DNA of 25,940 nucleotides from a virus. This document shows positions 3,676-23,770 of the stretch, piece by piece. Location of the stretch: the IMG/VR virus record IMGVR_UViG_3300009506_000172, positions 1-25,940 of that record; one strand, written 5' to 3'. Position 1 is the first letter of the stretch; the number at the start of each line of letters is the position of its first letter. The position numbers were made by a program, and so were the translations under genes. The notes under the pieces were generated by a model. The model was not told the DNA's origin. It made no database searches and saw nothing but the letters and a program-made list of their open reading frames with translations.

Positions 3676-5223
3676 CTAAATCTCCGTAGCAGTGTCGCCG
3701 TTGATCACGGTCACGATCCCTAGTTGCGGGAACTCTTCCAGCTCCAGGTCAACGTCGCGCGAGGACCCGTTGAGCACCAGCCCGTCGGAGCCGTCGTCCA
3801 TCTTCCGCACGCCTTCGGTGTCGCGGACGACGTCGTAGATGTCGGAGTAAGCGATCTCCGAGGCGGGCGTTCCGTCGGCATTCTTGTAATAGAAGCCAAA
3901 GTTGACGCGCGGGTTCTCCGAACCCGTCTGCAAGGTCCGGCCGCCCCACGCGAGCGGAGCGGCGAGCGTGAACGCGAACCAGTCCTCCAGGTTGTCGATG
4001 ATCCGCTGCTTGACCACGGACGGGGTCTGACCTTCCGCGACGAACACGGTAGCGACCACGTTGATCGTCTTGTAGACCGGGTCCGTAACGAACAGCTTGA
4101 AGGTTATCGTGTTCGGGTAGGTCACAGTGCACAGCGTGTAGACCGCGTCCTTGAGTTCCTCGGTCGGCAACCCGCCGCCGACCGGCACCACGTAGAGCCG
4201 ACCTTGGTTCTCCGCGATCGCGGTCTTCTGGTCGGACGTCAACATCAGCGCGCGGGCCACGCGGGCGTCGCGACGTGCGTTGATCTCGTAGTCCTCGCGG
4301 GCCACGGTTCGATTCAGCACCCGGATGGACTGCGGGGCGAGCTCGCGGATCTGGGCCGAGCTCATCCGGGCCGAACCGCCGTCCGCGTCGCGCTCATTGT
4401 CGCACGAAACGATCACCGGGTTTCCGACGCTGTCCGTGTACGTTCCATCGACTTTCTGGATCGAGTTCTGCTCGACGTTGCCGACCTCTCCTCCGCCCGT
4501 TTTGTACCTGAACGAGATCGTGCCGACGGGGATCTTCCCGTTGACCCCGTTGCCGAACCGCACCGTAGCTCGGTCGTTCTGGTCTACCGCGACGGTGCAA
4601 TGCTTGTCGGAAGCGGTGGAGGAGAGCAGCGAGCTGACCACCGTGTACGAGCCGTCCGCTGCCGTCGGGACGAGCGAGCCGTCCAAGAACGGCCGCTGCG
4701 CGAGCTGGTACTCCTGGTTCGGAGCTCCGTTGGACGGCAGCGTCTCCGTGTGGCTGACGCTGTTTTCGACGAGGACCGTAAGCTCGGGCGGGTCGGTGCT
4801 GGCCGGCAGCGTCGCGTCTTCGAGCAGTTGGAAAACTACCGGGTCGGTGATCTCCTTGGTGCGGAACGTGTCGCCTGCCTTGAACGGGACGAACCCGACG
4901 GGGACCGAGGCGAGGGTCAGCTTCAGCTCAGCGACCGCGGCGGTGGCGCCGAACGGTGTGAAACCTAGAAGCTTGGCCAAGGCAATGAGGTTCTTGCGCT
5001 GCTTGGCGTCGCTGATGCGGGACTCGCCGGCTTGGTTATCCTGGTAGAAGGTGAGGACGCCGCCCACGAAGCTCATGAGCCAGAGGAGCAAGTTGCCGAA
5101 GTTCGCGCGGTTGTGGTCCGTCCACGTCGGGAACGTTCCCGCGAGCAGGTTGGTGAGCCGTGCTCGGATCGCGTCTTCGTCCTTGTCGGTGTAGTCGAGG
5201 TTCAGCCCGAAGCCAGCAGCCAT
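3676..5223 (-). CDS. Baseplate J-like wedge protein (T4 gp6 / P2 gpJ family)
   Basis: A protein of 515 residues with the layout of Baseplate_J proteins, which form the wedge ring joining the hub to the fibres. The N-terminal helical region includes the typical 'D...ANFGNLLLWLMSFVGGVLTFYQD' type segment (residues about 37-63), where the family contacts neighbouring wedge proteins. The hallmark motif FGNGVNGKIPVG is at residues 223-234, followed by a YKTGGGEVGNV strand (240-250). The C-terminal half contains the helix after 'TVAREDYEINARRDARVARA' (about 307-326) that is typical of this family. Length is normal for phages with simple baseplates. It follows the gp25-like gene by 13 bp, the same wedge-gene order as P2 W-J and T4-like 25-6. 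The start at 5223 lacks a strong ribosome site, suggesting translational coupling. Confidence 0.95.
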   Translation of the reverse strand: MAAGFGLNLDYTDKDEDAIRARLTNLLAGTFPTWTDHNRANFGNLLLWLMSFVGGVLTFYQDNQAGESRISDAKQRKNLIALAKLLGFTPFGATAAVAELKLTLASVPVGFVPFKAGDTFRTKEITDPVVFQLLEDATLPASTDPPELTVLVENSVSHTETLPSNGAPNQEYQLAQRPFLDGSLVPTAADGSYTVVSSLLSSTASDKHCTVAVDQNDRATVRFGNGVNGKIPVGTISFRYKTGGGEVGNVEQNSIQKVDGTYTDSVGNPVIVSCDNERDADGGSARMSSAQIRELAPQSIRVLNRTVAREDYEINARRDARVARALMLTSDQKTAIAENQGRLYVVPVGGGLPTEELKDAVYTLCTVTYPNTITFKLFVTDPVYKTINVVATVFVAEGQTPSVVKQRIIDNLEDWFAFTLAAPLAWGGRTLQTGSENPRVNFGFYYKNADGTPASEIAYSDIYDVVRDTEGVRKMDDGSDGLVLNGSSRDVDLELEEFPQLGIVTVINGDTATEI

Positions 5224-9900: not shown

Positions 9901-11861
9901 AACGAGCCGTATGCGTTGGAGTAGATCTCGCACACGTCGCCACCGCCGCCGAAGGCGTAGGTCGAGCCCATGAGAACGGCTCCGCCATACGTGGCTTCGG
10001 CGTACGATTCGGATCCGTCGCCGGACCCGAGCATCACCGCAGAGAAGGGCGGGCAGTAGAACTCGTTGTCTCCTCTCCAATAACCAACGTACCCAGAACC
10101 TTCGGTGTAGATCGCTCCAGCGGTTACCCCGCCGAATGCCAGCGAGTCGTCGCGCTCGATGGTTCCTGTTCCCTCGTCTGCTGGACTAACGCCGACGAAC
10201 TCCGCTCGGTCGGAGCCCAGGACCAGCGCTTCGATGCCTCCCCACGGCTTCCTTGGCTGGTAGGGAACGTATTCTCTGAACCACAGGTTGTTCGTGATCT
10301 CAGTCCTCGGTGATTTTCCCAACCCGTAGGATTCGTCCCAGATGCCCCACGAACTGTAGATGTCGGTGTTAGGCCAGTTGACGTGAAGCTTCGACAGGTC
10401 TTCCGGGATGACCCCGGCCTTGAACCTTATGGCGATGACGTCGTACCACGGGCTCACGCCGAACGCGGCTATCCATTCTGCCGATACGTCGGCAGCTTCG
10501 ACCTTGTCGTCCAGCCCAGCGGCGACTATCTGACTGTTGAAGAGGTCGACGACCTCCGCGATCGTCGTCAGCGTGTGACCCTGTTCGAGCGCTAGCGGAA
10601 GCAGCTCCGTACCGACCGAGAACACGACCGGGTCTGCGTAGACGTAGGACCAATAGTCAGGAGGCGGAGAGACCCCTTTATACAAGATGAACACGAACAG
10701 CGGAACTATCTCCCTAACTTCTGGAAGCCCGAGATTCCGTGTCGAATCCTTTGGGAAGATGTCTTGGTCGAACACGAACCGTCGCGTGTCGCCAGCAACG
10801 CTCTCCCTCGGCCAGTATGGCGACTTCCACACGTTCTGTTCGTCGGTACTCTTGAACCAGTAGTGCGTCGTCGGCTGGTTCGAGAACGGATTGTAGACGG
10901 TCCTGTCCTCCGTGATGACCAACGATCCTCCAGGGTCTAACCGAAGGATGTGCGTGTACTGGTATGACCCGGTGGAGTACGCCTTGATCTTGTCGTCGAC
11001 GCCTTGGGCTACGATCGCAGCCTGCACAAGAGCAGCAGCGGTCTGCCAGGGCGTGGACCCGACGTCGAGGGTTACCGGGTCCCCACCGTCGATCGAGATG
11101 TCGAAGTCGACGTAGGCCGATGGAGATATGAAGAACCCCAGCGAAGCGCGCGAGCTGCTTTGGTCGACCCCGATCTTGTAACCGGCCTCTTCTTGGTACG
11201 GCTCCGCGACGAGCGTTTGCCCAACGGCGAAACGGTAGGAATCTGGATCGTAGACGTAGTTCAGATCAGTGAACAGATCAGGAGGCGTTCCACCCGGGCC
11301 TGTAATCGTCTTGGCCAACAACTTGAGCGAGTAGCCCGGAGCCGTGTAGATCCCGACAGGGTATGGCCAGTCTGGCTGATCTCTGGCGGCGATTTTATCC
11401 CCGACACCCGCTTCCTGGAATGCGTTGTTCAGTTGGTTGGAAATGCCCCAGATGATGTTACCGACGGAGGAGGGGTTCGCTCCGCTGACTGTGAACGGCG
11501 TCTCGTCGTTGAGCTGGAACTCCAGGTCCCACGTCATGCCCCAGGAGGGGTATCCCAAGAAACACTGAACGCCGATCGAAGTCTCTGTTTCAGTTTCAGG
11601 CGGGTAGTCCTCCGCTGGGATGATGTTCGACTCTACGTTGGACAGGTCGGCGCTGCGCTTCCACGTGCCGTCTTTGCCCTTCTGCCATAGGGTGCTCGGG
11701 GTGTACTGGTGATAGAAGATTCCGATCTTCGCGTTGACCAAAGTCCCCGGAGCGCTCGGGTCGTTCGGGTCGCCGTCGTAGCCTTCGGCGGACGATGGGT
11801 TCAGAAGGTTTCCCTTCAGCGGCATGTTGTCGATGATGAACTGCTCGAACGGCGTGGCCAT
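6960..11861 (-). CDS. Giant tail fibre protein with YadA-head-like repeat region
   Basis: A 1633-residue fibre. Residues 1-500 hold at least three related beta-helix-beta units ending in GVGDKIAA (153-160), GVDDKIKA (287-294) and GLDDKVEA (449-456). Residues about 545-850 are a Gly/Ala-rich region with GAFVQGYA-type motifs recurring every ~25-30 residues, like the left-handed beta-roll of trimeric adhesin heads. NGDFWVDSSTGRIWVYDG (872-889) is a common fibre motif. The last ~100 residues (GTYVLSRDDWNKVLVCTG onward, ending in FTVGGQLA) match the C-terminal beta-sandwich of many phage fibres. The start overlaps the previous stop by 1 bp (TGATG) after GAGGAGG. I infer a trimeric receptor-binding fibre. 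GC is lower than in neighbouring genes (about 48-58% on lines I counted). Confidence 0.88.
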   Translation of the reverse strand: MATPFEQFIIDNMPLKGNLLNPSSAEGYDGDPNDPSAPGTLVNAKIGIFYHQYTPSTLWQKGKDGTWKRSADLSNVESNIIPAEDYPPETETETSIGVQCFLGYPSWGMTWDLEFQLNDETPFTVSGANPSSVGNIIWGISNQLNNAFQEAGVGDKIAARDQPDWPYPVGIYTAPGYSLKLLAKTITGPGGTPPDLFTDLNYVYDPDSYRFAVGQTLVAEPYQEEAGYKIGVDQSSSRASLGFFISPSAYVDFDISIDGGDPVTLDVGSTPWQTAAALVQAAIVAQGVDDKIKAYSTGSYQYTHILRLDPGGSLVITEDRTVYNPFSNQPTTHYWFKSTDEQNVWKSPYWPRESVAGDTRRFVFDQDIFPKDSTRNLGLPEVREIVPLFVFILYKGVSPPPDYWSYVYADPVVFSVGTELLPLALEQGHTLTTIAEVVDLFNSQIVAAGLDDKVEAADVSAEWIAAFGVSPWYDVIAIRFKAGVIPEDLSKLHVNWPNTDIYSSWGIWDESYGLGKSPRTEITNNLWFREYVPYQPRKPWGGIEALVLGSDRAEFVGVSPADEGTGTIERDDSLAFGGVTAGAIYTEGSGYVGYWRGDNEFYCPPFSAVMLGSGDGSESYAEATYGGAVLMGSTYAFGGGGDVCEIYSNAYGSFSQGYALTFGLDGYAASGVNGGEGAFVQGYAVAYGDYSEAELLARGSGSFVQGYAGADDNSTANIYSYISAYGAFVQGMAWAADGIDAIIYNNGSGAFAQGYVNAWDDGSGGWQARIYVYGDGCMATGMVDGCGEIISGASTAHFGCRAGGYAHDNYKIRAEGLAAFAWGDTDGGNVEALGNNCGQFGVGTNNENNSTSYGTAFRFHHAPVTGPTVPRNGDFWVDSSTGRIWVYDGGAATSLVGAVTLVDLAQDIVLAADATHDVGKKYTGTITKPSVQGAGATWPITVLFNWPVWWKVNGLWYHTELSNLSDWYYLSECVNQINTDPDINRHWFASDVGGQLKLDYVGDPDDVVEIPEPGPGYSEPFDAGDTPGSYWTNFLGPLGAGPTPDYNTEMTSAYDQKVWREVNSERVYARNILEVGRSFRFIDPDSTEDPIVRPGDITIRDDGELEMVMPNDGPWQAFVQSRWWFEESTFGSDFPWDRKVFAQQTPGVPNGLAELEDQPADPDDRLAIGYSGDRFYLNRTAVTLGEKKPFTTYLNGRKRTIATCYYSDSPTSGQPYETYGEFFGGIGSDGSFQAPEKDLTKYEEALKRGAVLVEGYSTTPNFTTYMGVRAHPPTMDGATREWIDAVWGLRWLEGLEVSYAVGEGDGTLDSDVALHISDGKLQLGDLKIDVLDNEQVSMFNGQRSLDWPLKLGNQDMNTGTGGVFLEGVFRYWTGGKWWVTNSSSTGYLRKGFAYYQHPDQYSGARLPINVDLGGDDWGWQEVASGNFVNFFIVATNDFRVALRGITGQVEYASLSDAERGMEAEFRSIIRQGLPFKHFVPVAGVCLQTDDSYTNSYKARIRTLSNGSPAKDFRGVDLFQPSDNAIATSRDFAEPRGDVVLVGAGTYVLSRDDWNKVLVCTGGPTIEVPSSIPPAFFCRVYQSDGTQPTIAAGSGATLNKPSTWASPVKTKEQYAYGEILAVAEGVFTVGGQLA
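9312..9944 (-). repeat. Degenerate GAFVQGYA-type repeats (beta-roll region of the fibre)
   Basis: Protein-level repeat at fibre residues about 640-850. Copies visible in order are GSFSQGYA, GAFVQGYA, GSFVQGYA, GAFVQGMA, GAFAQGYV, GCMATGMV, more degenerate AHFGCRAGGYA and AAFAWGD, and GQFGVG. Spacing is about 25-30 residues, mostly with small polar/acidic loops between. The pattern is that of trimeric-adhesin head (YadA-like) repeats. Confidence 0.75.
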
Positions 11862-13735
11862 CAGACTTCCTCCTCAACGTCCAGAAGTTGGGCACCTTGC
11901 GCGACCGTGTACTGCACCGTGTCGAGCCAGATGATCGTGTCCTGTGCTCCAGCGTTCACCGTGTAGCCGTCCGTCACTGGCTCCGGCGTTCCGATGGGCT
12001 GCTTCAGTCCTTGTTGGTTTGTGGCTGTGATGATCCCTGACTTCAGCTTGCTGAACAACACAACCGCCGTTCCTATCGGACCGTCGTTGTCGAAGTTGGG
12101 GAACGTCACGGGACGCTTCACGAACCCGCCGAGGTTGTACTCTTCCGACCCGCCGACCGCGACCGTTTGCTCCAAGCCGCTCAGGCCCTTCGTGTAGAGG
12201 TTCTCGAAGGCGAAGTTCGGCCCGCCGTCCGGGGTCTTTTCGTCTGGCACCGTCTCGTCGACTCGCAGCGTCCGCGTCCAGTTGCTAGGCCCTCCTCCCC
12301 ACGCACCTTCGACGAACGAGCCGCGGTTCCCCCCGCTGTCCTCGTCGAGCACGGGAGCCTCTATCAAAGGCTGGTTGCTTTGGATGGTGATGGTGTGGTT
12401 CTGCGGTGCCGAACCGTTCGAGCCACCGCTGCGCAGGCGCGACGCTGGCTTGGCGATCGTTACCTGCTGAACCACGTTCGCTACGACGACCACGGAGTTG
12501 ACCGTAGTTTGCGCTCCGTTCTCGTGGCGCGTCATGACGTAGCGGAAGTTCGTGGCCGAGTTGTTGAACCTCCCTACCGGGTCCTTGCACGTTACGATCT
12601 TGTTCGCCTCGAACGTCGTCGCGTTCGGGATGTCGATGTCTATCCCCGTCGGGTCGGAGTACAGGATCTCGTCGAAGTTGGCTGCGGTGTGTTGGATGCC
12701 AGGAGCGGGCGTCGCCTCCGTACCCTTCAGCGCAGCTTGCCCGACAGGGTAGGTCTTCCCAGTCACCGACCCGCTAGAAAACAAGTTGCGCAGGTACACG
12801 GCGTCGAACCCGTCGACCTCCGACCCTGGAGGGTCGACGTCGTGGTTGGTGTCGAGCGTCGCCGAGAACGCGAGCGTCGCAGCGTCGCGCACCTTGACCC
12901 TAGCAGCCAACAACTGGAGCGACGTTCCGCGGTTCGCGGCTTGCAGGTTGACCACGCTCGTCTGCGACCCGCTGCCAGCCGGGGTCACCGTGCGAACCAC
13001 GGACTTGCCGGAACCGAAGTCCTCGAAGACCACCTGGTCGAACGGCTTGTCCGCCGTGACCTCGACCTGGTACGTGTCGTTCTCCTTCAGCGCGGTTTGC
13101 CGAACGCCCGTCGGCCCGAGCGGGTAGTTGTCGGGGTCCGGTGCAGGGTTCGGTCCCGTGAACTTCGCCTGCGTCACGGTGGGCGGTAGGTCGAGCGTCA
13201 CGGCCAACGTGTCGACCGCACCGTCCTCCCCGTCGGGTGTCTTGACCATCGCCTCCACGTTGCCGTCGACGTCCACGGTGATCGCCACGTCGCCGCGGTA
13301 CAGAGCACCGATGCCTCCGGCGTCCCGCGGAAGCACCGCGTCGACTACGTTGGCGTTCGGGGCGCTGAGTTGAACGAGCGGGTAGGAAGCTCGGACACGA
13401 ACCAAGATGTCGCGCGCCGAGCAGGTGATAGCTTGGAGCACCGTGTTCGCCGGATCGTCCTGCCAGTCCTTCGCGTCGCTGTCGCCCCAGCCCGGCTCGC
13501 CGCCCGGCACCGAGGCGTCCTCTATGTAGATCCAACCCCCGCCTGCCGCACCTGGCTCCTCGTACCAGTCGTCCAAACCGAAGCCGCGCTTGAACTGCGA
13601 GCGCAGCGCGTCCAGGTCGTCCTGGATCGTCTGCGCGTTCGCCTCCATGTCCGGGCCGGACGGCACCTCGTCGTTGTAGGCGTCAGAGTTGCGGAGCTGG
13701 TCTTGCCGGAGCTTGTTTCGTGGCATGGCGACCAC
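11861..13735 (-). CDS. Fibre or baseplate-attachment protein with fibre-type N-terminus
   Basis: A protein of 621-624 residues. The ATG at 13726 (MPRNKLRQDQLRNSDAYNDE) or an in-frame GTG at 13735 is the start; neither has a strong ribosome site, but the ATG matches the usual beginning of such proteins. Residues about 1-60 are a charged helical segment ending in LDALRSQFKRGFGLDDWYEE, a pattern common at the N-terminus of phage fibre and baseplate-attached proteins ('l.DDLnalRSQ.kri.G...WyD'). The rest is a chain of beta domains with Ig-like character (for example around residues 175-285 and 380-500), and it ends with a beta-rich domain and an acidic tail. It lies directly before the giant fibre, overlapping its start by 1 bp, so I infer that it connects the fibre to the baseplate or forms a second fibre. 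Confidence 0.82.
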   Translation of the reverse strand: MVAMPRNKLRQDQLRNSDAYNDEVPSGPDMEANAQTIQDDLDALRSQFKRGFGLDDWYEEPGAAGGGWIYIEDASVPGGEPGWGDSDAKDWQDDPANTVLQAITCSARDILVRVRASYPLVQLSAPNANVVDAVLPRDAGGIGALYRGDVAITVDVDGNVEAMVKTPDGEDGAVDTLAVTLDLPPTVTQAKFTGPNPAPDPDNYPLGPTGVRQTALKENDTYQVEVTADKPFDQVVFEDFGSGKSVVRTVTPAGSGSQTSVVNLQAANRGTSLQLLAARVKVRDAATLAFSATLDTNHDVDPPGSEVDGFDAVYLRNLFSSGSVTGKTYPVGQAALKGTEATPAPGIQHTAANFDEILYSDPTGIDIDIPNATTFEANKIVTCKDPVGRFNNSATNFRYVMTRHENGAQTTVNSVVVVANVVQQVTIAKPASRLRSGGSNGSAPQNHTITIQSNQPLIEAPVLDEDSGGNRGSFVEGAWGGGPSNWTRTLRVDETVPDEKTPDGGPNFAFENLYTKGLSGLEQTVAVGGSEEYNLGGFVKRPVTFPNFDNDGPIGTAVVLFSKLKSGIITATNQQGLKQPIGTPEPVTDGYTVNAGAQDTIIWLDTVQYTVAQGAQLLDVEEEV

Positions 13736-14480: not shown

Positions 14481-15065
14481 CTAGATCGGGTCGCTGCTCG
14501 GGCGCACCACGCGCCCGTTGATCTGAACGTGCATGGCCTTGATCTCGACGGCTCCTTTCGTGTCGAGCCGGATCGCCCCGCGACTCTTGACGGTGATCCC
14601 CTCCTGCTTGCCGTCCATCTCGATGTTGTTGCCGTTGCGCTTGTCCTCGAGGATGAGCGACGCCGTCTCCTCGTTGTCGTCCATCACCATCAGCCAGCGC
14701 TCGGTCTCGAAGAAGGCGACGTTCGGCACCTCCTCCGCGGGGCGGTCGGCAACTTTGCCGGGGGTCTGCACGACCCCTCCCGGCATGCCGTAGTTCGCGC
14801 CGATGTAGTACGGGTGGTCGGGGTCGCCCTGGTTGAAGAACACGGCGACGTCGGCGCCGACCAACGGCACGATGTGAGCCCCGTGGCGCGCGGCTCCGCC
14901 GCCGACGGTCATGGGCCACACCCAACCGGACTCGGGCTCGATCAGTCCAGGGATGCGAACCCTCACGCGCCGCAGCTTCATCGGGTCAACGCGGTTCGTC
15001 ACGACTCCGATCGCAACGTCGGGCAACCTGGGTCCAGGGTTGTTGGGGTCGTCGTACTCGGGCAT
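14481..15065 (-). CDS. Baseplate spike protein, gp5/gpV-like (OB fold plus beta-helix)
   Basis: A protein of 194 residues. Residues about 15-110 form the OB-fold region of the gpV/gp5/VgrG spike family: IGVVTNRVDPMKLRRVRVRIP is followed by WVWPMTVGGGA, then the strand pair GADVAVFFNQGDPDHPYYIG. Residues about 135-190 carry alternating strands (NNIEMDGKQEGITVKSRGAIRLDTKGA-type) typical of the beta-helical needle that pierces the membrane. It has no lysozyme domain, as in P2-type spikes and unlike T4 gp5, and no C-terminal metal-binding His motif is evident. It follows the gp27/gpD-like hub gene by 13 bp, the expected order. A probable ribosome site AAGGGG is 2-4 bases before the ATG. Confidence 0.93.
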   Translation of the reverse strand: MPEYDDPNNPGPRLPDVAIGVVTNRVDPMKLRRVRVRIPGLIEPESGWVWPMTVGGGAARHGAHIVPLVGADVAVFFNQGDPDHPYYIGANYGMPGGVVQTPGKVADRPAEEVPNVAFFETERWLMVMDDNEETASLILEDKRNGNNIEMDGKQEGITVKSRGAIRLDTKGAVEIKAMHVQINGRVVRPSSDPI

Positions 15066-15078
15066 GACCCCTTGTACC

Positions 15079-16443
15079 TCATTCGGGCGAGCACATGGAA
15101 GGCGTCGCTCCCGAATCGTGGTAGCTGAACGTCTCCCGCCCCGTTTCCGGGTCTATCGAAAGCTGCGGGGTCAGTTGCTCCGCGTTCCCGCCCTCCGCAG
15201 CTTCGCCCTCTCCCGGCCGGGTGTTCCGGTTGCCGCGCTGGCGACGCCCGGAGTCGAGCAGCTCCAATCCTCTCACGGTGCGGCTGCTGGTGTCGTGGCC
15301 GCCGTGACCGTCGGACACGAGCTGGAGCGTCATCTTGTACCCGCTGCCTCCGACGTTGTGCTCGACGGTGCGAACGTAGTATCGGACCGACAGGCGCCTG
15401 CCGAACCCGCGACACTCGCAGACGGTTTTCGCCAAGACCATCGGGTCGCCGATGACGTTGAGCTTCAGCTTTATGGCAACCTGCTGAGCCCGTCGCGCCA
15501 AACCCTCCGCCTCCCGCGAAGCGGTCACCGCGTCGGAGGTCGGGCCGACGTCCTCCGACTCGACCTCGCTTTCCTGGATCGTTATTCCCCGCGTCTCCGG
15601 GTCGATGACGATCTCGGGTTCGCCGGGCGGCGGTCGGGGCACCGATTGGAGGAGCTCCTCGGACTCCGTGCCGTACACCTCCTGCACCGGAGCGAGCACG
15701 GTTCGCTGCGGGGCGGTGGCTGCGGAGTCGCCCTCCACGTCCTCCTTGGTGAGCGGGTCGCGCCCGCGTCGACGCACCCTGCCTGGCTTGGCGGTGATGT
15801 CGTTCTCGATGTCGAACGACTCGACCTCGCCCATGTTCGGGTCCGTGTAGTAGTGGAAAATCCTCGTGGGCGCCGCGGCGAAGTCCCGCTCGTGGAAGTG
15901 GAACCCTTGCGAGTCGACGTAGAACTGGAAGCCCTCCAGCCGCGCCAGCCGCATGACGAACTGTGCGTCGGTCATGGCAGCTTGGTGGATGTGCGGGAGC
16001 CTCACGCCCGTGTCTTGGATGAAGCGCGCCGACTCTCCCCAGCCGTACTCCCCGGCGATCTCTCGCACCGCTTCAGCCCGCGTCTTGTTCTCGAACGTCC
16101 GCGCTTTGCGGTTCTTGTTCATCAGCTCGGAGAGTGCCTTGGCCTCGACTTTCAAGCTCACCGAACCCTTGACCTTCGTGATGACGACCTCGCGAGGTAC
16201 GGCCATCCGCCCCGGGTAGCCCCAACTGACGACGAAGCGGTTCCCCTTCTTGAAGATCGGGTCGTCGAGGAAAGCCAGGTCCCTGTTGCTCACCACCAGC
16301 GAGCAGGTGTCGGCCCCGCGCTCCGTGTCCGTGTACTTGAAGCTGATGAGCTTGCTCCCGAGCTGGAGGCTGTGCTCCCCGACGTCCGACAGCAGTCGCA
16401 CCCAAAAGCGCGGAGCGCTCCTGTCGAACACGGGTGTGGTCAC
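15079..16443 (-). CDS. Baseplate hub protein, gp27/gpD (late control D)-like
   Basis: A protein of 454 residues with the layout of phage late-control D/gp27 hubs, which connect the tail tube to the spike. Residues about 9-100 hold the first barrel domain, with FKYTDTERGADTCSLVV then a 'GNRFVVSWGYPG' strand, a family hallmark. Residues about 115-185 contain the helix-strand region (KTRAEAVREIAGEYGW; LPHIHQAAMTDAQFVMRLARLEGFQFYVD). The C-terminal barrel ends near residue 400, followed by a low-complexity tail. I chose a GTG at 16443 because it overlaps the preceding stop as GTGA; the in-frame ATG at 16581 would bury 140 bp inside the LysM gene and add an Arg/Pro-rich N-terminus unlike the family. 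The central region (about 225-300) is an acidic, Pro-rich linker. Confidence 0.92.
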   Translation of the reverse strand: MTTPVFDRSAPRFWVRLLSDVGEHSLQLGSKLISFKYTDTERGADTCSLVVSNRDLAFLDDPIFKKGNRFVVSWGYPGRMAVPREVVITKVKGSVSLKVEAKALSELMNKNRKARTFENKTRAEAVREIAGEYGWGESARFIQDTGVRLPHIHQAAMTDAQFVMRLARLEGFQFYVDSQGFHFHERDFAAAPTRIFHYYTDPNMGEVESFDIENDITAKPGRVRRRGRDPLTKEDVEGDSAATAPQRTVLAPVQEVYGTESEELLQSVPRPPPGEPEIVIDPETRGITIQESEVESEDVGPTSDAVTASREAEGLARRAQQVAIKLKLNVIGDPMVLAKTVCECRGFGRRLSVRYYVRTVEHNVGGSGYKMTLQLVSDGHGGHDTSSRTVRGLELLDSGRRQRGNRNTRPGEGEAAEGGNAEQLTPQLSIDPETGRETFSYHDSGATPSMCSPE

Positions 16444-16790
16444 TGCTCCTCGCGCCTTTGCTCGCTGAAGATGTTTTCTCGGACTACCCGAGGAGACGGA
16501 CCGACGAGCACGCGACCGACTTCTAGCTCGATCGTCGGGTCGTGGATCGGGTCGGGCTGGAAGTCGGCGACGACCCACCACAGCCCGGCAGGCCGAACGA
16601 AGGCGCCGCGGTATCTCCTCGCGGCGATGTTCCAGAGAGTGTCACCGCGGTCGACGACGTGCTTCCAGTTGTCTTCGAGCTCGCGATACCCGAACCGAAC
16701 GCGGTCGGTTAGGAAGACGCGCTCGTCGCCGAGGTCCGACAAGCGGAGACCTTTGCAGAACATGTGGCGGCTGTACTTGCGAGGCGGCAT
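16440..16790 (-). CDS. LysM-domain baseplate protein (gp53/Afp7 C-terminal-like)
   Basis: A protein of 116 residues. A LysM domain lies at about residues 44-95: HVVDRGDTLWNIAARRY is followed by WWVVADFQ and 'G..LVGPSP', the usual LysM landmarks. In contractile tails LysM proteins of this position sit in the inner baseplate between hub and sheath start (T4 gp53, Afp7 C-terminal region). The N-terminal 40 residues are charged, with no signal peptide. It begins 1 bp after the preceding stop and its own stop overlaps the hub GTG by 4 bp. The LysM could bind the sheath/tube interface rather than peptidoglycan; this is known for relatives but inferred here. Confidence 0.9.
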   Translation of the reverse strand: MPPRKYSRHMFCKGLRLSDLGDERVFLTDRVRFGYRELEDNWKHVVDRGDTLWNIAARRYRGAFVRPAGLWWVVADFQPDPIHDPTIELEVGRVLVGPSPRVVRENIFSEQRREEQ

Positions 16791-16791
16791 G

Positions 16792-17313
16792 TTAGACGAT
16801 CCCCGTTCCCCCGAGCCTGAACTCGTCGTCGTTGTAGACCTGCTCGGAAGTGATCCGCACGTCGCGGATCTCCGTGAGTTGGATGGTGGCTCGGAACTCC
16901 ACGGACCGCGCTTGGCGGTTGAACCTGCTGTGCGTGATCCTCACGCTGCGGACCTTGCACGTCAGCGAGAGCATCCCCGGCCAAACGAGCAACGCTCGCG
17001 GCGACCCGGCGCTACCGACCTCGTCGGCAGCTCCCATCGGGTAGCAGAGCGAGAACAAGAGTCGCCGCGCCCGCATCATCTCGATGTGGCTCGCGACGTC
17101 GCGCACCATGTAGTGGAGCTCGAAGTCGACCGTGAAGTTCGTCGTGTTCTTGAACTGCGAAGGCTGGTGGCTCAAGCCGAGCACGGTGTCGTCGTCGTGC
17201 GCCGCGGACACGGCTTCGGCGAACTGCACCGGGTTGGCTTGCGCCTCGAGGCTGACCGCGGTCGCAACGTTCGTTATGGTCATCCGCGGGGGTGTGTTGT
17301 TGAGGTCGAACAT
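16792..17313 (-). CDS. Tail tube initiator-like protein (CIS tube/Afp7 N-terminal type)
   Basis: A protein of 173 residues. Its strands fit the tube-like N-domain of contractile injection system Afp7 proteins: NFTVDFELHYMV then a helix around ARRLLFSLCYPMG, then RALLVWPGMLSLTCKVRSVRITHSRFNRQARSVEFRATIQLTEI (about 112-155), matching the 'v.f.wG......v..v...f...G.prrA.v...l.Ei' pattern of this fold. It directly follows the tape measure (TGATG overlap) and precedes the LysM gene; the pair looks like a split Afp7. I infer that it forms the first ring on which the tail tube assembles. The family assignment is by pattern memory, so a remote-homology check would be needed for certainty. Confidence 0.72.
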   Translation of the reverse strand: MFDLNNTPPRMTITNVATAVSLEAQANPVQFAEAVSAAHDDDTVLGLSHQPSQFKNTTNFTVDFELHYMVRDVASHIEMMRARRLLFSLCYPMGAADEVGSAGSPRALLVWPGMLSLTCKVRSVRITHSRFNRQARSVEFRATIQLTEIRDVRITSEQVYNDDEFRLGGTGIV

Positions 17314-19946
17314 CAGCCTTCCTCACCGTACGACACGCGCCGGAACTCCGAGGCGTTGCGGTCCCTGCTCACGCGCTCCACCGAGCTCGCGAGCACCTCC
17401 TCCTCGATCGACATGTTCGAGTGGATGACGATCTCCTGCGGTCCCTGCTGCTGGCTCGACATCGCGGCGAGCGAGGACTGGAGGGTCGACATCATCTCGC
17501 CGCGCTCCTGCGACATGTTGGCAGCTTCGGCGACGGCTGGGAAAGCTCCGGGAGCCGCTGGCACGGACATGATCGGCTTCTCCTCGGCGAGCGCCATCGT
17601 CGTCCGCTTCGTCGTACCCTCCGCGCCGTCGCCGATGATCCCCAAACCTTCGAGCGCTGCGGTCATCAGTCGGAACGGGCCCGTGGTGACGAACAGGACG
17701 AGCTCCTTGAGCCGGTTGAGCACCCAGACGACCGCGCCGGCGAACGCCATGAACGCCGAGGCGACGATCGAGATGACGTTGAAGACCCAGCCGAGTACGC
17801 CGGCGAATATCTTGAGCGTGCCGATCAGGCCGCCCGTGTCGCCGGCGAAGGCGTTGGCTCCCCCGCCCATCACGGCGAACCCGTCGAATATCTGGGCTAC
17901 GAGGAACCCGAACATGGTGCCGAGCACGTCCATGAACGGAGAGACCGTATCCCAGAAGATCCCTGCGACCTCGAGGAGTCCGGCACCCAAGTCCCACACC
18001 TTACCGCCGAACTCGGTCAAGCCGGGGCCGACGTCCGCCCAGAAGCTCTTGCCCCACTCGACGGCCCGCGTCGTGAACTCGACCACGGCGGTTATCGCGT
18101 CGATGACGTTCTCCGCGATGCGCCCGAACATCTCGCCCATCGCCCTGCCCGACTGGTTCGCCTCCTCGGAGGGAGCGCCCGCGAAAGCTTGGACGCTGTC
18201 GCCGACGAACCCGAACGCCGCCGCTAGACCGAGCACCGCTGAGCCGAGCCGTTCCAGCGTCGGGCCCGCTTGGTCCATAAACGCCCCGAACCCTTCGCGC
18301 ACGCCTTCCAAGAAGCGCTGGATGCGGTAGCCCGCAGCGTAGATGGTACTGATGAAGCCGAGCACGCCTTCGTTCTCCGCCTTGGATAGCTCCTCGGCTA
18401 GCGGCCCGCTGATCTTCCCTTCGGAGAACAGCGCGACCAGTCCCTCGAACGCGAGCTTCGCGTCGCTGACGAACTTCGTGAAGGTCTCGCCGAGCCCACC
18501 GACGTCTCGCTTTACGGCCACCACCATCGCCCCCACAGCGATCGCCACGGCCCCCGCGGCAGCGATGACCGGCGCCGCTGCGATCGCTATCGCGCCCATC
18601 GCGAGCGCGAGCCCTTTGAGGATCGGAAGCAGCAGGACGATCGTGAAGGCTGACGCCATCATCCCGCCGAACGCCATCATCGCGATGCCCGCCGACGCAG
18701 CGATCCCGACCAGCGCGGTTTGGGCCGGCTTCGGTATCGCGTTGAACAGGCGGATGACGATGTTCAACCCGTTGGTGATGACGTCCACTAGGGGCTTGAA
18801 CACGCGGGCCGCGGGCTCGCCAAACACGACGCCCAGCGTTTGGACGGTGCCGGCCAGCAAAGTTTTCTGCCCCTCGAACGTGTCGAGCAAAGTCTCGCGG
18901 AACGACTCCGCAGTCCCCGAAGCGTTCGCCATCTCCTCCCGGAGCGCCTTGATGGCGTCGCGCCCTTCGAGCGTGACCTGGCGCCCCTCGCGCATCGTGG
19001 TGAACGACGCGGTCTGGATCGCGGAGAACGCCAGCAAGCCGCGCGCCCCGGTTGCCTTTACGACGATGGCGTTGCGGTCCTCGTCGGTCATCGAAGCCGT
19101 GGCGTCCTTGAGGTCCAACAGGATGTCGACCGCGCTCCGCATCTTCCCGGTCTCCTCGTCGAAGACGTCGACCCCGGCCTTGCGCACCGCAGCTTGGGCT
19201 CCTGAGTCGGAGGCAAGCCTGCGCAGGACCTCTCGCATCGCGGTGGCGGCGGACGACGCCTCGATGTTCCTGTTCCGCAGTTGGCCAACCGTGATGAGCA
19301 CGTCCTCGAGGGACGTCCCGAATATAGCGCCGGCCGCGGCAGCTTTGGCCAAGCCGACCTCGAAGTCCCGCGCTTGGAAGTTCGTTAGCTGGGTAATGCG
19401 AAGCAGCTTGTCCGTGACCTCCGTCGCGTCGGTCGCCGCCATGCCGTAGGCGTTCAGCGTACCGACGACGGCTGCGGCAGCCTGCCCGACGCCGAGTTGC
19501 CCGAGCGAGCCCGCCGCGAGGTCCAGCACCGGGATGAGCGTTTGGGTTGCCTGCTGGGCGGTCTGCCCAGCCGTGGCCAGGCTCAGCAAACCTTCGACCG
19601 CTTCGTCGGGCGAGAACTGCGTCGCGATGCCCGCGTTGATCGCCGACGTTCGCAGAGCGTCCATTTCTTGGGAGGTAGCGCGCGACACCGCGCCCACCCC
19701 GGCCAACCCACGCTCGAACTCTCCAGCTTGATTCGCTAGCCCGAACAAGCCGGCGAGGACGCCCGCCCCCGCCGCCATGGTGCCGACCGCAGCCCCGAGC
19801 CCGACGGCCGCACCCCGCATCGCGGTCGCCGCCAAGCTCGTGTTCCTCGTCATGCCAGTCATCTGCTGGTTGATCCCGGCCATCTGGGCAGAGGCTTGGT
19901 CCTCCGCCGTGAACTGGAACCCCATGCCGAAGTTGTTGAGCGCCAT
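17313..19946 (-). CDS. Tail tape measure protein (TP901-type)
   Basis: A protein of 877 residues that sets tail length and blocks the tube interior before ejection. The TP901-type domain lies at about residues 75-330: [19 protein letters not shown], then [20 protein letters not shown] and [35 protein letters not shown]. The N-terminal 60 residues are helical and Gln/Ala/Gly-rich. Residues about 400-480 contain long hydrophobic segments (for example [21 protein letters not shown]), which in this family may enter the host membrane. By the family's usual scaling of about 1.5 A per residue the tail would be roughly 130 nm long. The C-terminus is charged and helical. The ATG at 19946 has AAGG close upstream. 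Confidence 0.95.
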
Positions 19947-19994: not shown

Positions 19995-20297
19995 TTACTC
20001 CTCCACGGGCTTCTTTGTTTTCAGGGCTCTAGCCTCCGCGCGCCGCTGCTCCAGCAACCACTCCTCGTGGGCGTCGATCTCCCCGAGGCTCATCTCCATC
20101 ACGTCGGCCCGGGTGAACGAGAACCCCGAGCCGCCGTGCAGCGAATAGCAAAGGTTACGGATCTTCTGCCAGATGTGCTCGTCGCTGACGAGCGGGAACA
20201 GGCCCCCGCCTACTGCCTTGCGGAGTTGCGGCGACGCGATCGCGGCAGGAAGAACCGCAAGTTGAAAGGGAGGTTTATCTCCTTGTGCGTCTTGCAC
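19995..20297 (-). CDS. -1 frameshift extension of the tail assembly chaperone
   Basis: An open frame of up to 100 residues overlapping the gp26-like gene by 88 bp in the -1 frame, directly before the tape measure. Its only in-frame start candidate before the overlap ends is a GTG at 20297 without a ribosome site. A -1 shift at C_CCT_TTC (20264-20270) would instead join residue 234 of the upstream protein to 89 residues of this frame, giving a 323-residue product. The region is charged and helical (EEWLLEQRRAEARALKTKK), as in the C-terminal parts of tail chaperones such as the lambda gpGT 'T' segment or the small ORF before tape measures. Function in tape-measure handling is inferred from this context. 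Confidence 0.82.
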   Translation of the reverse strand: MQDAQGDKPPFQLAVLPAAIASPQLRKAVGGGLFPLVSDEHIWQKIRNLCYSLHGGSGFSFTRADVMEMSLGEIDAHEEWLLEQRRAEARALKTKKPVEE

Positions 20298-20965
20298 CGT
20301 GGACAGAATACTTCGAGCTCGGTATCGACGCCGCCGTCGACCTCCTCGAACTCGTCGAACATCTCAGTCAACACCCGACCTGAAAGCTTCTCCAGGTACG
20401 CTTCGACCTCGCGCCTGCCGGACGTTTCCTTGCCGCCGGAGCGAACGCCCACGATGCGCGTCGCGAGCATCTCGATCAGGTCCGGCTCGTCGTCGATCAT
20501 CCTGATGGCGCTCTTCTCGTCGGCGCCGACGTTGAGCCGGTAGATGACCGTGTCGTCGCCGACCTTGAACTCGAAGCGGTTGCCCTTCCTGAACGTCTCG
20601 ACGGACGACTCGGGGAGCTTCTTCACGGGCAGTTCGTGGAGCGGGAGGTCCCACCAGAACTTCTTGCCGCGGCACTTCTTCGAATCGCACGGCACCTTGA
20701 AGTCGTAGATGTTGCCGTGCGTCTCGATGCGGATCTGGATCAGCGAGTAGAACCTGTCGGCGGTTAGAACGGCGTCCCAGTCGAGGACGCCGTCCTTCGT
20801 CTCGTACGGTCCCGGCTGCTCGGTCTCCAGCCAGCAGTTCTCCAGGATCTTGTTGAACGTCACGCCGGCTTCGATCTCGTCCTGCTTGGACAACAGCTTC
20901 AGCTCGGCTCCCGTGATGTGCCTGATCTTCCCGACTAGCCCCGACGGGCAGGTGATGATGCTCAT
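20210..20965 (-). CDS. T4 gp26-like / tail assembly chaperone (frame-0 product)
   Basis: A protein of 251 residues resembling the T4 baseplate-assembly family (gp26-like). RFYSLIQIRIETHGNIYDFK (71-90) is followed by a cysteine pair C93/C98, then a second pair in CPRC (221-224) and the late LPF...RFFLP segment. The four cysteines suggest a metal site. Such proteins lie between tube and tape-measure genes and act as assembly chaperones that are not always in the mature virion. The ATG at 20965 has AAGGGA 4 bases upstream, just at the foot of a hairpin. Its C-terminus overlaps the next ORF in the -1 frame, with a slippery site at residues 233-234, so two products are expected. The final 13 residues of frame 0 are Arg-rich (PRSRRRNSARQ). 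Confidence 0.85.
   Translation of the reverse strand: MSIITCPSGLVGKIRHITGAELKLLSKQDEIEAGVTFNKILENCWLETEQPGPYETKDGVLDWDAVLTADRFYSLIQIRIETHGNIYDFKVPCDSKKCRGKKFWWDLPLHELPVKKLPESSVETFRKGNRFEFKVGDDTVIYRLNVGADEKSAIRMIDDEPDLIEMLATRIVGVRSGGKETSGRREVEAYLEKLSGRVLTEMFDEFEEVDGGVDTELEVFCPRCKTHKEINLPFNLRFFLPRSRRRNSARQ
20264..20270 (-). promoter_or_regulatory. Programmed -1 frameshift site (slippery heptamer C_CCT_TTC)
   Basis: In frame 0 the codons read ctC CCT TTC AAC, so the heptamer C CCT TTC fits X_XXY_YYZ exactly. Slipping back one base re-pairs Pro CCC and Phe TTT and enters the open -1 frame. Three bases downstream TTGCGG (20260-20255) can pair with either CCGCGA (20245-20240, one wobble) or CCGCAA (20231-20226), a possible stimulatory stem. 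Confidence 0.8.
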
Positions 20966-21027: not shown

Positions 21028-21489
21028 TCAACCGAGATCGAAGTAGGAGTGCACGACCTCGATCGAACGCATGACGTTCTCGTCGGCCGTGTTGTCCCAC
21101 TGCCCTGCCACGAAGCGGCGGATCCACGCTTCCTGGAGTCGCCACCGCATCAGCTCGGAGTTGTCGCGGTCCAGTTGAACGATGTCTGCCGTCCTCTTGT
21201 AGTACGGCTCGATGATGCCGCCGTCGGCTACGGCGTCCGCGCACTCGCGGAACCACTCCCACAGCTCCAAGTCCTGCGTGGCACCTTGGGTGAGGGTGAT
21301 GTTCGGGTACGTGAGCCGACCCGCGTCCTTCGCCGCGGCGCGGGTCCCGCCACCCTCCCACTGCTCGACCACGGCGAGTTCCGCCGCGAGCTCCGAGCAG
21401 TCTTGGAAACCGGCGTAGCCGAGGCCGTCCACCTCGACCACGAACTTGAACTTCTTGTGGTAGGTCCGTGGAGTTCCGAAAACTGGCAT
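21028..21489 (-). CDS. Tail tube protein (T4 gp19-like)
   Basis: A protein of 153 residues that forms the inner tube of the contractile tail. It matches the T4 gp19-like tube family. The N-terminal strands FKFVVEVDGLGYAGFQDCSELAAE (about 14-37) are followed by the charged stretch VVEQWEGGGTRAA, then the conserved loop-strand RLTYPNITLTQGATQDLELWEWF (about 58-80), a family hallmark. The C-terminal half has RRFVAGQWDNTADENVMRSIEVVHSYF, the usual 'vmr.iEl.hd.f' ending. The ATG at 21489 has AGGGAG 8 bases upstream. It directly follows the sheath by 25 bp, the canonical order. Like the sheath it should be strongly expressed, unlike the chaperone downstream. Confidence 0.95.
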   Translation of the reverse strand: MPVFGTPRTYHKKFKFVVEVDGLGYAGFQDCSELAAELAVVEQWEGGGTRAAAKDAGRLTYPNITLTQGATQDLELWEWFRECADAVADGGIIEPYYKRTADIVQLDRDNSELMRWRLQEAWIRRFVAGQWDNTADENVMRSIEVVHSYFDLG

Positions 21490-21514: not shown

Positions 21515-23770
21515 TTAGAGCCCAGCTTCCGCCAGCTCCTGGTCCAAAGCCCGCGTGTCCTGAGACACCTTGATGATGATCCACTCGGTAGGCTTGTTCG
21601 TGGCCAAGCCCATCAGGATGTTCATGCGCTTGGCGAACACCTCCGACTCCGGGTTGATGCCTTCGCCGACGTCCGTGTAGAACGAGTTGCTCGGCTTGTC
21701 GCCGCGGAACGCGCCCTTGCGGAACTGTTGGAGCAGGAACAAGTCCATCGAGCGCTTGACCTTCGCCCGCAGCCCCGGCGTCTGGTTGACGTGGCGCGCG
21801 AACTCGATGCCGTCGCGGACCGAGGCCTCGATGTGTATGACCCCGCGCCGCTCACCGACGCTCGGGAAGTTGCCGTCCTCTCGAAGCGTGACGGTCCCGT
21901 CCACGTATCCGGGGAGCACCATCGGGTTGATGAGGTCCGGGTAGATGGCGTCGCGAACGTCGTCGTCCTCCGCCTCGTCCGTCTCGAACCCCGTGATGCC
22001 CGCGAGCTTGAAGCCTTGCTCGAAGCCCGCTGGCTGCTCGTAGATCCCGGCACCCGCGTTGCGCGCCGCGATCCTCGCGAAGAACCCCGCCATGTGGCCG
22101 GAGATCGGGCACACGATGTTCTTGACGTCGCCGTAGACCGACTTGTCGGGGTTGAGCACCGTCGGGTTGGGCCAGTACACGGCGCCGAACTCCGACAAAC
22201 CCTTGAGCGCCGCCGTAACGGTGACGTAGGTCCGAGCTTGCTGGTACGTGTACCCGGTCGGGATGTCAATGATGGGGAAGCAGAGACCCATGCGCTCGTT
22301 CTCGCACCAGGAGATCATCGCCGAAGCTACGGCTGGCGTAGGCTGGTCGGGGATCGCCAGCACTCGGATGTTCTTCTTCGTGTTGAAGGACTGCAAGCCG
22401 GTGCGGCTCACCTTCGACCCGATGAAGTCCAAGTCAGCGAGGTCGGCGAGGCCGTCGTTGCCGCCAGTCATGGGGCCGAACGGGTCGGGAGCTCCGCCTA
22501 CCAACGGGCTGTTAGCCGGGCGGAACGCCGGGCCGATGTCGCTGATGACAGCGTAGTCTGACCCGCTGTCCTCGTCGTTGAACACGGTGACGAAGTATCG
22601 GGCCGAGTTCGGGTTGATGGACAGGTTCGGGTGGGTCTTTACCGCAGCGCCCTTGAAATACTCCACGAGGTTGAAGTCGTCGGCTTCCCCGTTGGTGGCG
22701 TCCGCCACGACGACCTCCCAGTCGGCCGCGTATGCCCCGTAGGACTTGCCGTCGAACTGGACGCACGCGACGGCGGCCCCCGTGGTGCCGTTGTGCACCG
22801 CGTTGTCGAGCCCGAGCTCGTCGTCCGCCGTGCTGCTGGCGACGACCTGGATCCCGTTCGGCGCAGCGCCCGGGGTGGTGCTCTCGATCTTCACGGCGCC
22901 GGAAACGTCGGTGACCTCGCAGCCGGCGACGGCGCCTTCGACGACGGTCTTCACTTCAGCAACCGTGACCGCGTCGATGTTGTCGACGTTGCCCGTCCCG
23001 TTGAGCAGGCCCGTGGTGAAGTTCAAGCGGTTGACCCCGCCAGTGTTCGCGGTGCCGCCCGTGACGTTCACGCCGCTGCCCGTGCCCCTCGTGTCGGAGG
23101 TGATGCGGGGCGCCCCTCCGTCCAGGTCGCAGCTCGCGCCGACGATCTTCGCGTTGATGACCGCCGCGACCTCCTCTGCCGTGGCGTTCGCGATGTCGAC
23201 GAACTCGCTCGTCAAGAAGGTGATGGTCTGCTCGACCCCTTCGTCGATCTCGACCAGCAGCGTCAAGCCGTCAGCCAAGTCGTACGTGGGCGCGTTGCCC
23301 GCGGTGCGCGAGGCAGCCGTAGCGGTGAACGTCGCGGTCGCCGCGCCGGTGTCGTTGACGTCGACCTCCAGCGTGTCGCCAGGCTCCAGGTCGAACGGAG
23401 CGACAGCGGTCCCGAGGACGAACCCCTTGGTCGGGGAACTCGCTTCGCTGTCGAGCTGCAAGGTCCCCTTCGCTGCCGTAGCGAGGGTGCCGAGGTCGAG
23501 GTCGGAGTAGTGGGCGGTGCGGCAGAACCACAAGTCTTGACCTTCGTTCTCGAAGAACCCGCGCACCGCGCTGGCAGCGATGCCCCCGGCAACGTCGCCC
23601 CCGTAAATCTTGAACCACTCGGGGTAGGAGCGAGTGCGGGTCGGGGTCATCGGACCGCGCATCGTGATCCCGACCATCGCGGTGATCGACAACGGGGCCG
23701 CAGCGATCTGCCGGATCTTCGGAGCTTCTTCCTGAACTATTGTTTTCGAGGCGAGGAGTTCACGGCCCAT
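21515..23770 (-). CDS. Tail sheath protein with a large inserted domain
   Basis: A protein of 751 residues forming the contractile sheath. Residues 1-100 carry the sheath N-terminal strands (ITAMVGITMRGPM; FFENEGQDLWFCRT). Residues about 336-751 carry the conserved core and C-terminal domain, with VLAIPDQPTPAVASAMISWCE (470-490), NPDKSVYGDVKNI and a late stretch RRGVIHIEASVRDGIEFARHV...TPGLRAKVKRSMDLFL. Residues about 105-335 are an insertion containing the shared domain (163-253) and a related second unit (262-327). The length is within the upper range for sheaths with insertions, which usually decorate the outer surface. The start at 23770 follows GGGAAG. It lies between the coiled-coil gene and the tube gene. 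Confidence 0.95.
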   Translation of the reverse strand: MGRELLASKTIVQEEAPKIRQIAAAPLSITAMVGITMRGPMTPTRTRSYPEWFKIYGGDVAGGIAASAVRGFFENEGQDLWFCRTAHYSDLDLGTLATAAKGTLQLDSEASSPTKGFVLGTAVAPFDLEPGDTLEVDVNDTGAATATFTATAASRTAGNAPTYDLADGLTLLVEIDEGVEQTITFLTSEFVDIANATAEEVAAVINAKIVGASCDLDGGAPRITSDTRGTGSGVNVTGGTANTGGVNRLNFTTGLLNGTGNVDNIDAVTVAEVKTVVEGAVAGCEVTDVSGAVKIESTTPGAAPNGIQVVASSTADDELGLDNAVHNGTTGAAVACVQFDGKSYGAYAADWEVVVADATNGEADDFNLVEYFKGAAVKTHPNLSINPNSARYFVTVFNDEDSGSDYAVISDIGPAFRPANSPLVGGAPDPFGPMTGGNDGLADLADLDFIGSKVSRTGLQSFNTKKNIRVLAIPDQPTPAVASAMISWCENERMGLCFPIIDIPTGYTYQQARTYVTVTAALKGLSEFGAVYWPNPTVLNPDKSVYGDVKNIVCPISGHMAGFFARIAARNAGAGIYEQPAGFEQGFKLAGITGFETDEAEDDDVRDAIYPDLINPMVLPGYVDGTVTLREDGNFPSVGERRGVIHIEASVRDGIEFARHVNQTPGLRAKVKRSMDLFLLQQFRKGAFRGDKPSNSFYTDVGEGINPESEVFAKRMNILMGLATNKPTEWIIIKVSQDTRALDQELAEAGL
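23012..23284 (-). repeat. Copy 1 of a ~90-residue domain shared with a distal tail protein
   Basis: Sheath residues about 163-253. The match to the 751-residue tail protein (residues about 264-353) includes identical stretches DIANAT and TGGTAN with GGVNRL. A degenerate second unit follows in the sheath at residues 262-327 (VTVAEVKTVVEGAVAG, then VKIES). Confidence 0.8.

Follow-up and report, generated by a model that had tools for sequence, protein, structure and literature searches.

A conserved CCCTTTN site and probable -1 frameshifting in the gp26-like tail assembly chaperone gene of an uncultivated phage clade

Tail assembly chaperones (TACs) made by frameshifting are well known, and the class includes -1, -2, and +1 forms across phages (PMC5009743). 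The window analyzed here, a 25.9 kb IMG/VR record (IMGVR_UViG_3300009506_000172, taken over its whole length of 25,940 nucleotides) that is probably a fragment, carries contractile-tail genes on the minus strand, and among them a gp26-like gene overlaps a second open frame in an arrangement that had not been annotated (Table 1). The question raised by this locus is whether the second frame is a gene of its own or an extension reached by ribosomes that slip in the first. Based on comparative sequence analysis, the gp26-like gene very probably encodes a tail assembly chaperone in two lengths via a -1 slip at CCCTTTC, which would make the overlap part of a single chaperone gene with two products, a reading that is well supported.

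Table 1. Features of the chaperone locus and neighboring tail genes in the window
Feature	Position	Strand	Basis
Tape measure protein gene, presumed chaperone client	17313..19946	-	PhageMin_Tail E 3.3e-34; tape-measure PHROGs, best 1.1e-54
TAC-C, extension in the -1 frame, 91 aa from slipped CCC TTT onward; would make the 323-aa TAC-NC	19995..20270	-	Translation, PHROG 20255, alignment A8
TAC-N, gp26-like short tail assembly chaperone, 251 aa, frame 0	20210..20965	-	Pfam, PHROG, structure
-1 slippery heptamer C_CCT_TTC	20270-20264	-	Read in sequence
SD-like AAGGAG, 8 nt 5' of heptamer, possible stimulator	20279..20284	-	Clade anti-SD energy
Tail tube protein gene (gp19-like), upstream neighbor	21028..21489	-	Phage_T4_gp19 E 1.3e-28
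Tail sheath gene, one of the queries for relatives	21515..23770	-	PHROG 15814 E 6.2e-170; tail sheath PHROG 17610 E 2e-34

Slip site and reading frames in the window

The sequence CTCCCTTTC at 20264-20272 (minus strand) holds the heptamer CCCTTTC, which lies, as a preliminary description of this DNA had claimed, in frame 0 of the gp26-like gene and within the overlap of the two frames, where the codons CTC CCT TTC specify residues 232-234. Frame 0 ends at the stop at 20210, and the -1 frame, which opens 151 nt 5' of this stop, runs to its own stop at 19997-19995, leaving a gap of 48 nt before the tape-measure ATG at 19946. The same description had proposed a slip product of 323 instead of 251 residues and a -1 frame open almost to the tape measure gene, and both points hold: translation with a -1 slip gives 232 + 91 = 323 residues, with the junction INL-PFQLAV. 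CCCTTTC is the sole X_XXY_YYZ heptamer in the gp26-like gene, and CCCTTTN is unique among the 23 in-frame heptamers of this type found in 15 genes of the window (7,471 codons). A heptamer usable in the overlap also arose in 5.5% of synonymous shuffles, so the evidence from the window by itself is no more than suggestive.

We also examined elements that might stimulate slippage. Using an assumed host anti-SD, the mean binding energy of the 20 nt upstream of the heptamer across the clade of relatives defined below was -5.8 kcal/mol, compared with -4.4 +/- 0.4 kcal/mol in synonymous shuffles (none of 200 was as low); the SD-like element taken in the window alone was not significant (P 0.52). An upstream SD-like stimulator is also known at dnaX. 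A downstream stem or pseudoknot found no support in the window (z of -0.1 to 0.3 for 50- and 80-nt stretches and -0.9 for 103 nt), no conserved downstream structure was detected across the clade (mean z only -0.7 to -0.8), and no upstream hairpin was seen (mean z 0.16).

Conservation of the site and alternative explanations

Relatives were collected by scanning viral contigs with the TAC-N and sheath proteins, after which an HMM found the gp26-like ORF in 54 places, duplicates included. The clade of the window comprises 25 distinct sequences (the window and 24 others), the most divergent of which is 28% identical to the window; 23 are left once those sharing about 85% identity or more are removed. 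A TAC-N profile scan of genome contigs returned no relatives, and phage isolates yielded remote relatives only, none of them close. The order sheath, tube, TAC, and tape measure is kept in the relatives, and in 20 of the 23 clade sequences the start of the next long ORF lies no more than about 110 nt from the stop of TAC-C. C_CCT_TTN is kept in all 25 distinct sequences, and a check independent of the heptamer gave the same picture: all loci from one of these scans with a sheath identity of at least 41% to the window, and in which the TAC region was found, carry C_CCT_TTN. In the TAC-N tree, the CCCTTT loci form one side of a branch (support 98/92). Moreover, in each clade member the -1 frame crosses the frame-0 stop, 12 to 44 codons past the site, into one shared domain of about 60 residues wherever the contig continues (the contigs of L033 and L032 end too early to show the domain; L032 has a longer twin, L039). 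The conservation of both heptamer and -1 frame that the preliminary description had put forward for comparison was thus observed throughout the clade, and no member was found that lacks the slippery site and has a separate start with a ribosome site instead.

Codon-level comparisons suggest that the nucleotides themselves are under selection. When pairs of loci with the same residue were compared, the codon before Pro was identical in 100% of pairs versus 22% expected from per-locus codon usage, and the Pro codon CCT in 100% versus 29%; the excess identity of these two columns (0.78 and 0.71, respectively) far exceeds that of the next best column of the gene (0.29), and in the clade loci CCT accounts for 8-37% of the codons used for Pro. 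The second slip codon varies between Phe and Leu (mostly TTC, otherwise TTT, TTA, or TTG) while TT is constant, which points to selection on nucleotides. The product of the per-locus probabilities is about 10^-34 if independence is assumed, and as the loci are not independent this value indicates a direction only. Taken across the clade, conservation of the heptamer goes far beyond chance. CCCTTTN after the second CxxC may serve as an annotation rule for gp26-like genes in this clade.

Three other explanations of the two-frame arrangement were considered. It is very unlikely that the downstream ORF is a separate gene, started at GTG 20297 or by translational coupling, with the heptamer being incidental. 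The GTG is indeed present, starts in the right frame near the domain exist in some relatives (such as an ATG in L003), and the 63-residue length of the PHROG 20255 profile suggests that separate short genes were called for its members. However, the GTG sits 5' of the heptamer and has no SD sequence evident by eye, in agreement with the earlier claim that this ORF has only a GTG start without a ribosome site. Besides, 11 of the 23 non-redundant sequences, the window included, offer no ATG, GTG, or TTG in the -1 frame from the heptamer to the domain, the SD energy is weak in most of the others, and a separate gene would leave the fixation of C CCT unexplained. The view that frameshifting accounts for the downstream ORF better than its own initiation is supported by these absent starts and fixed codons. 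Production of the extension by transcriptional rather than ribosomal slippage is still less probable: T6-T8 runs occur in some other groups (L009, L012, and L049), where such slippage may take place, but at the window site the only runs are CCC and TTT, which are generally too short for slippage by RNA polymerase, and the conserved bases are those required by a two-tRNA slip. Finally, splitting of one ORF by a sequencing or assembly indel, conceivable in a single contig, is refuted by the recurrence of the two frames in 25 distinct sequences of diverse identity and can practically be dismissed.

The two predicted chaperone forms and related systems

The frame-0 product was previously described as a gp26-like protein with four cysteines, and this assignment was confirmed by several approaches. 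TAC-N matches Pfam PF12322 (T4_baseplate) with an E-value of 2.8e-13 (50.5 bits versus a cut-off of 24.5) and PHROG 150 with an E-value of 1.5e-16; PF12322 is matched at E <= 0.01 by 27 of the 28 members of the TAC-N alignment (A7), and C93, C98, C221, and C224 are invariant (alignment A9). The AlphaFold model of TAC-N (pLDDT 92.9) has 63 BFVD matches at E <= 1e-3, several of which are named T4-like baseplate hub and one of which is Gp26 of Aeromonas phage 25 (E 1.2e-5), and a PDB fold search of TAC-N gave no significant match to a solved structure. The slip point falls right where the confidently folded domain of this model ends, and the frame-0 tails past the site vary in length and sequence, with the tail in the window being of low predicted confidence. 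The extension is predicted to be helical with moderate confidence, and its domain follows the pattern LFP...LCY.QHGGSG..FT.ADV..M.L.EI...EWL..R..EA in the clade alignment (A8). It is matched by PHROG 20255, listed in PHROG as of unknown function, in 18 of 23 clade members, and its profile aligns with the extensions of other gp26-like groups (93% probability, E 2.7e-7). A weak match to Pfam P2 GpE, below significance, was obtained for one TAC-C relative (E 0.03).

We infer the slippage itself, its rate, and a role in tail assembly. Most ribosomes would stay in frame 0 and produce TAC-N, while a minority would slip by -1 with CCU in the P site and UUC in the A site, re-pairing to CCC and UUU, and then read the -1 frame to yield TAC-NC with its helical C-terminal domain. 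On the model of lambda G/GT, TAC-N may coat the tape measure, the TAC-C domain may recruit tube subunits, and both forms would leave the finished tail.

The preliminary description had regarded the arrangement as a mirror of lambda G/GT. The layout is alike, since lambda gpG/gpGT also involves a -1 slip late in the short gene, just before the tape measure, that gives a C-terminally extended form; however, lambda slips at GGGAAAG whereas the window has CCCTTTC, no Pfam or PHROG match to lambda gpG or gpT was found, and the closest precedent is the T4-like TAC pair (gp26/gp51), in which TAC-N is gp26-like and the long form likewise consists of TAC-N and a C-terminal domain. Because of this precedent, a gp26-like frame-0 partner is expected rather than odd. 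The T4-like pair of TAC-N and frameshifted TAC-NC is already known as a class; Vladimirov, Gautam & Davidson 2022 (Virology 566:9-15) are said to have reported frameshifting in some T4-like groups, whereas T4 itself reportedly has separate short and fused long TAC genes, unlike the frameshifting proposed for the window clade. Vladimirov et al. 2022 identified TAC genes of T4-like phages, and are cited on these TACs by PMC10885494 and PMC12846349. Comparison of the same type has also revealed, in the myophages of Vandenendeviridae/Andersonviridae, a -1 frameshift that is conserved where TAC-N ends, with the motif GTTTTT instead of the CCCTTT of the window clade (PMC12846349). P2 gpE/E+E' is another -1 frameshifted TAC of a contractile-tail phage, and no relation between TAC-N and the P2 TAC was seen. 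A literature search on CCCUUUC in phage frameshifting gave no relevant paper among those listed.

Other recoding modes in the gp26-like family and further observations in the window

Beyond the clade, homologous gp26-like genes appear to reach the same C-terminal domain in different ways. In L009, L011, L012, and L049, the extension lies in the -1 frame at T-runs. In eight loci (SP-15, LIS04, BRock, vB_SagM-GXN1, L013, L068, L085, and L089) it lies in what we label the +1 frame, a label that covers +1 or -2 and, at T-runs, fits both; five of the eight have TTT_C at the shift place, and on the TAC-N tree the label needs at least two changes. In L050-L052 the extension is fused in frame. It is likely that one homologous family has switched its recoding mode while keeping the product, using -1 slippage at C_CCT_TTN, -1 slippage at T_TTT_TTY or a T-run, +1 (or -2) shifting at TTT_C or T-runs, and in-frame fusion (three contigs). 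This family may provide a natural test of frameshift-signal swapping with both products kept. What is new, as read from these sequences, would be the CCCTTTN site in an uncultivated clade, an explanation for PHROG 20255, and the access to one domain by -1 shift, +1/-2 shift, or in-frame fusion in homologous genes.

The isolate phages with a +1 (or -2) extension carry it at 4600-4868 in SP-15 (L004), 4610-4870 in LIS04 (L005), 1830-2090 in BRock (L087), and 1745-2090 in GXN1 (L088). In SP-15, BRock, and GXN1, TTT_C stands where it is expected, and in LIS04 an A follows a T-run. The form TTT_CGN, seen in BRock, GXN1, and L068, resembles the +1 site of influenza PA-X. The annotations of these four isolates give the extension as a separate hypothetical protein or leave it out, and do not mark it as frameshifting. 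The in-frame TAC-C-like tails are found at 3349-4189 in L050, 4975-5836 in L051, and 3041-3902 in L052, no separate short form being seen; the fused gene of L051 is followed by a 382-aa ORF and not by a long tape measure gene.

Elsewhere in the window, a 624-aa protein at 11861-13735 (minus strand) matches PHROG 15433, which is named tail sheath (E 1.2e-63), in addition to the sheath gene in Table 1; the PHROG 15433 name may be doubtful, or this may be a second sheath-like protein. In a 751-aa protein at 1415-3670 (minus strand), residues 255-356 share similarity with positions 154-252 of the sheath family PHROG 15814 (E 5.7e-8). An open frame of 1139 aa at 14911-18330 (plus strand), antisense to the tail genes, is most likely a consequence of high G+C content.
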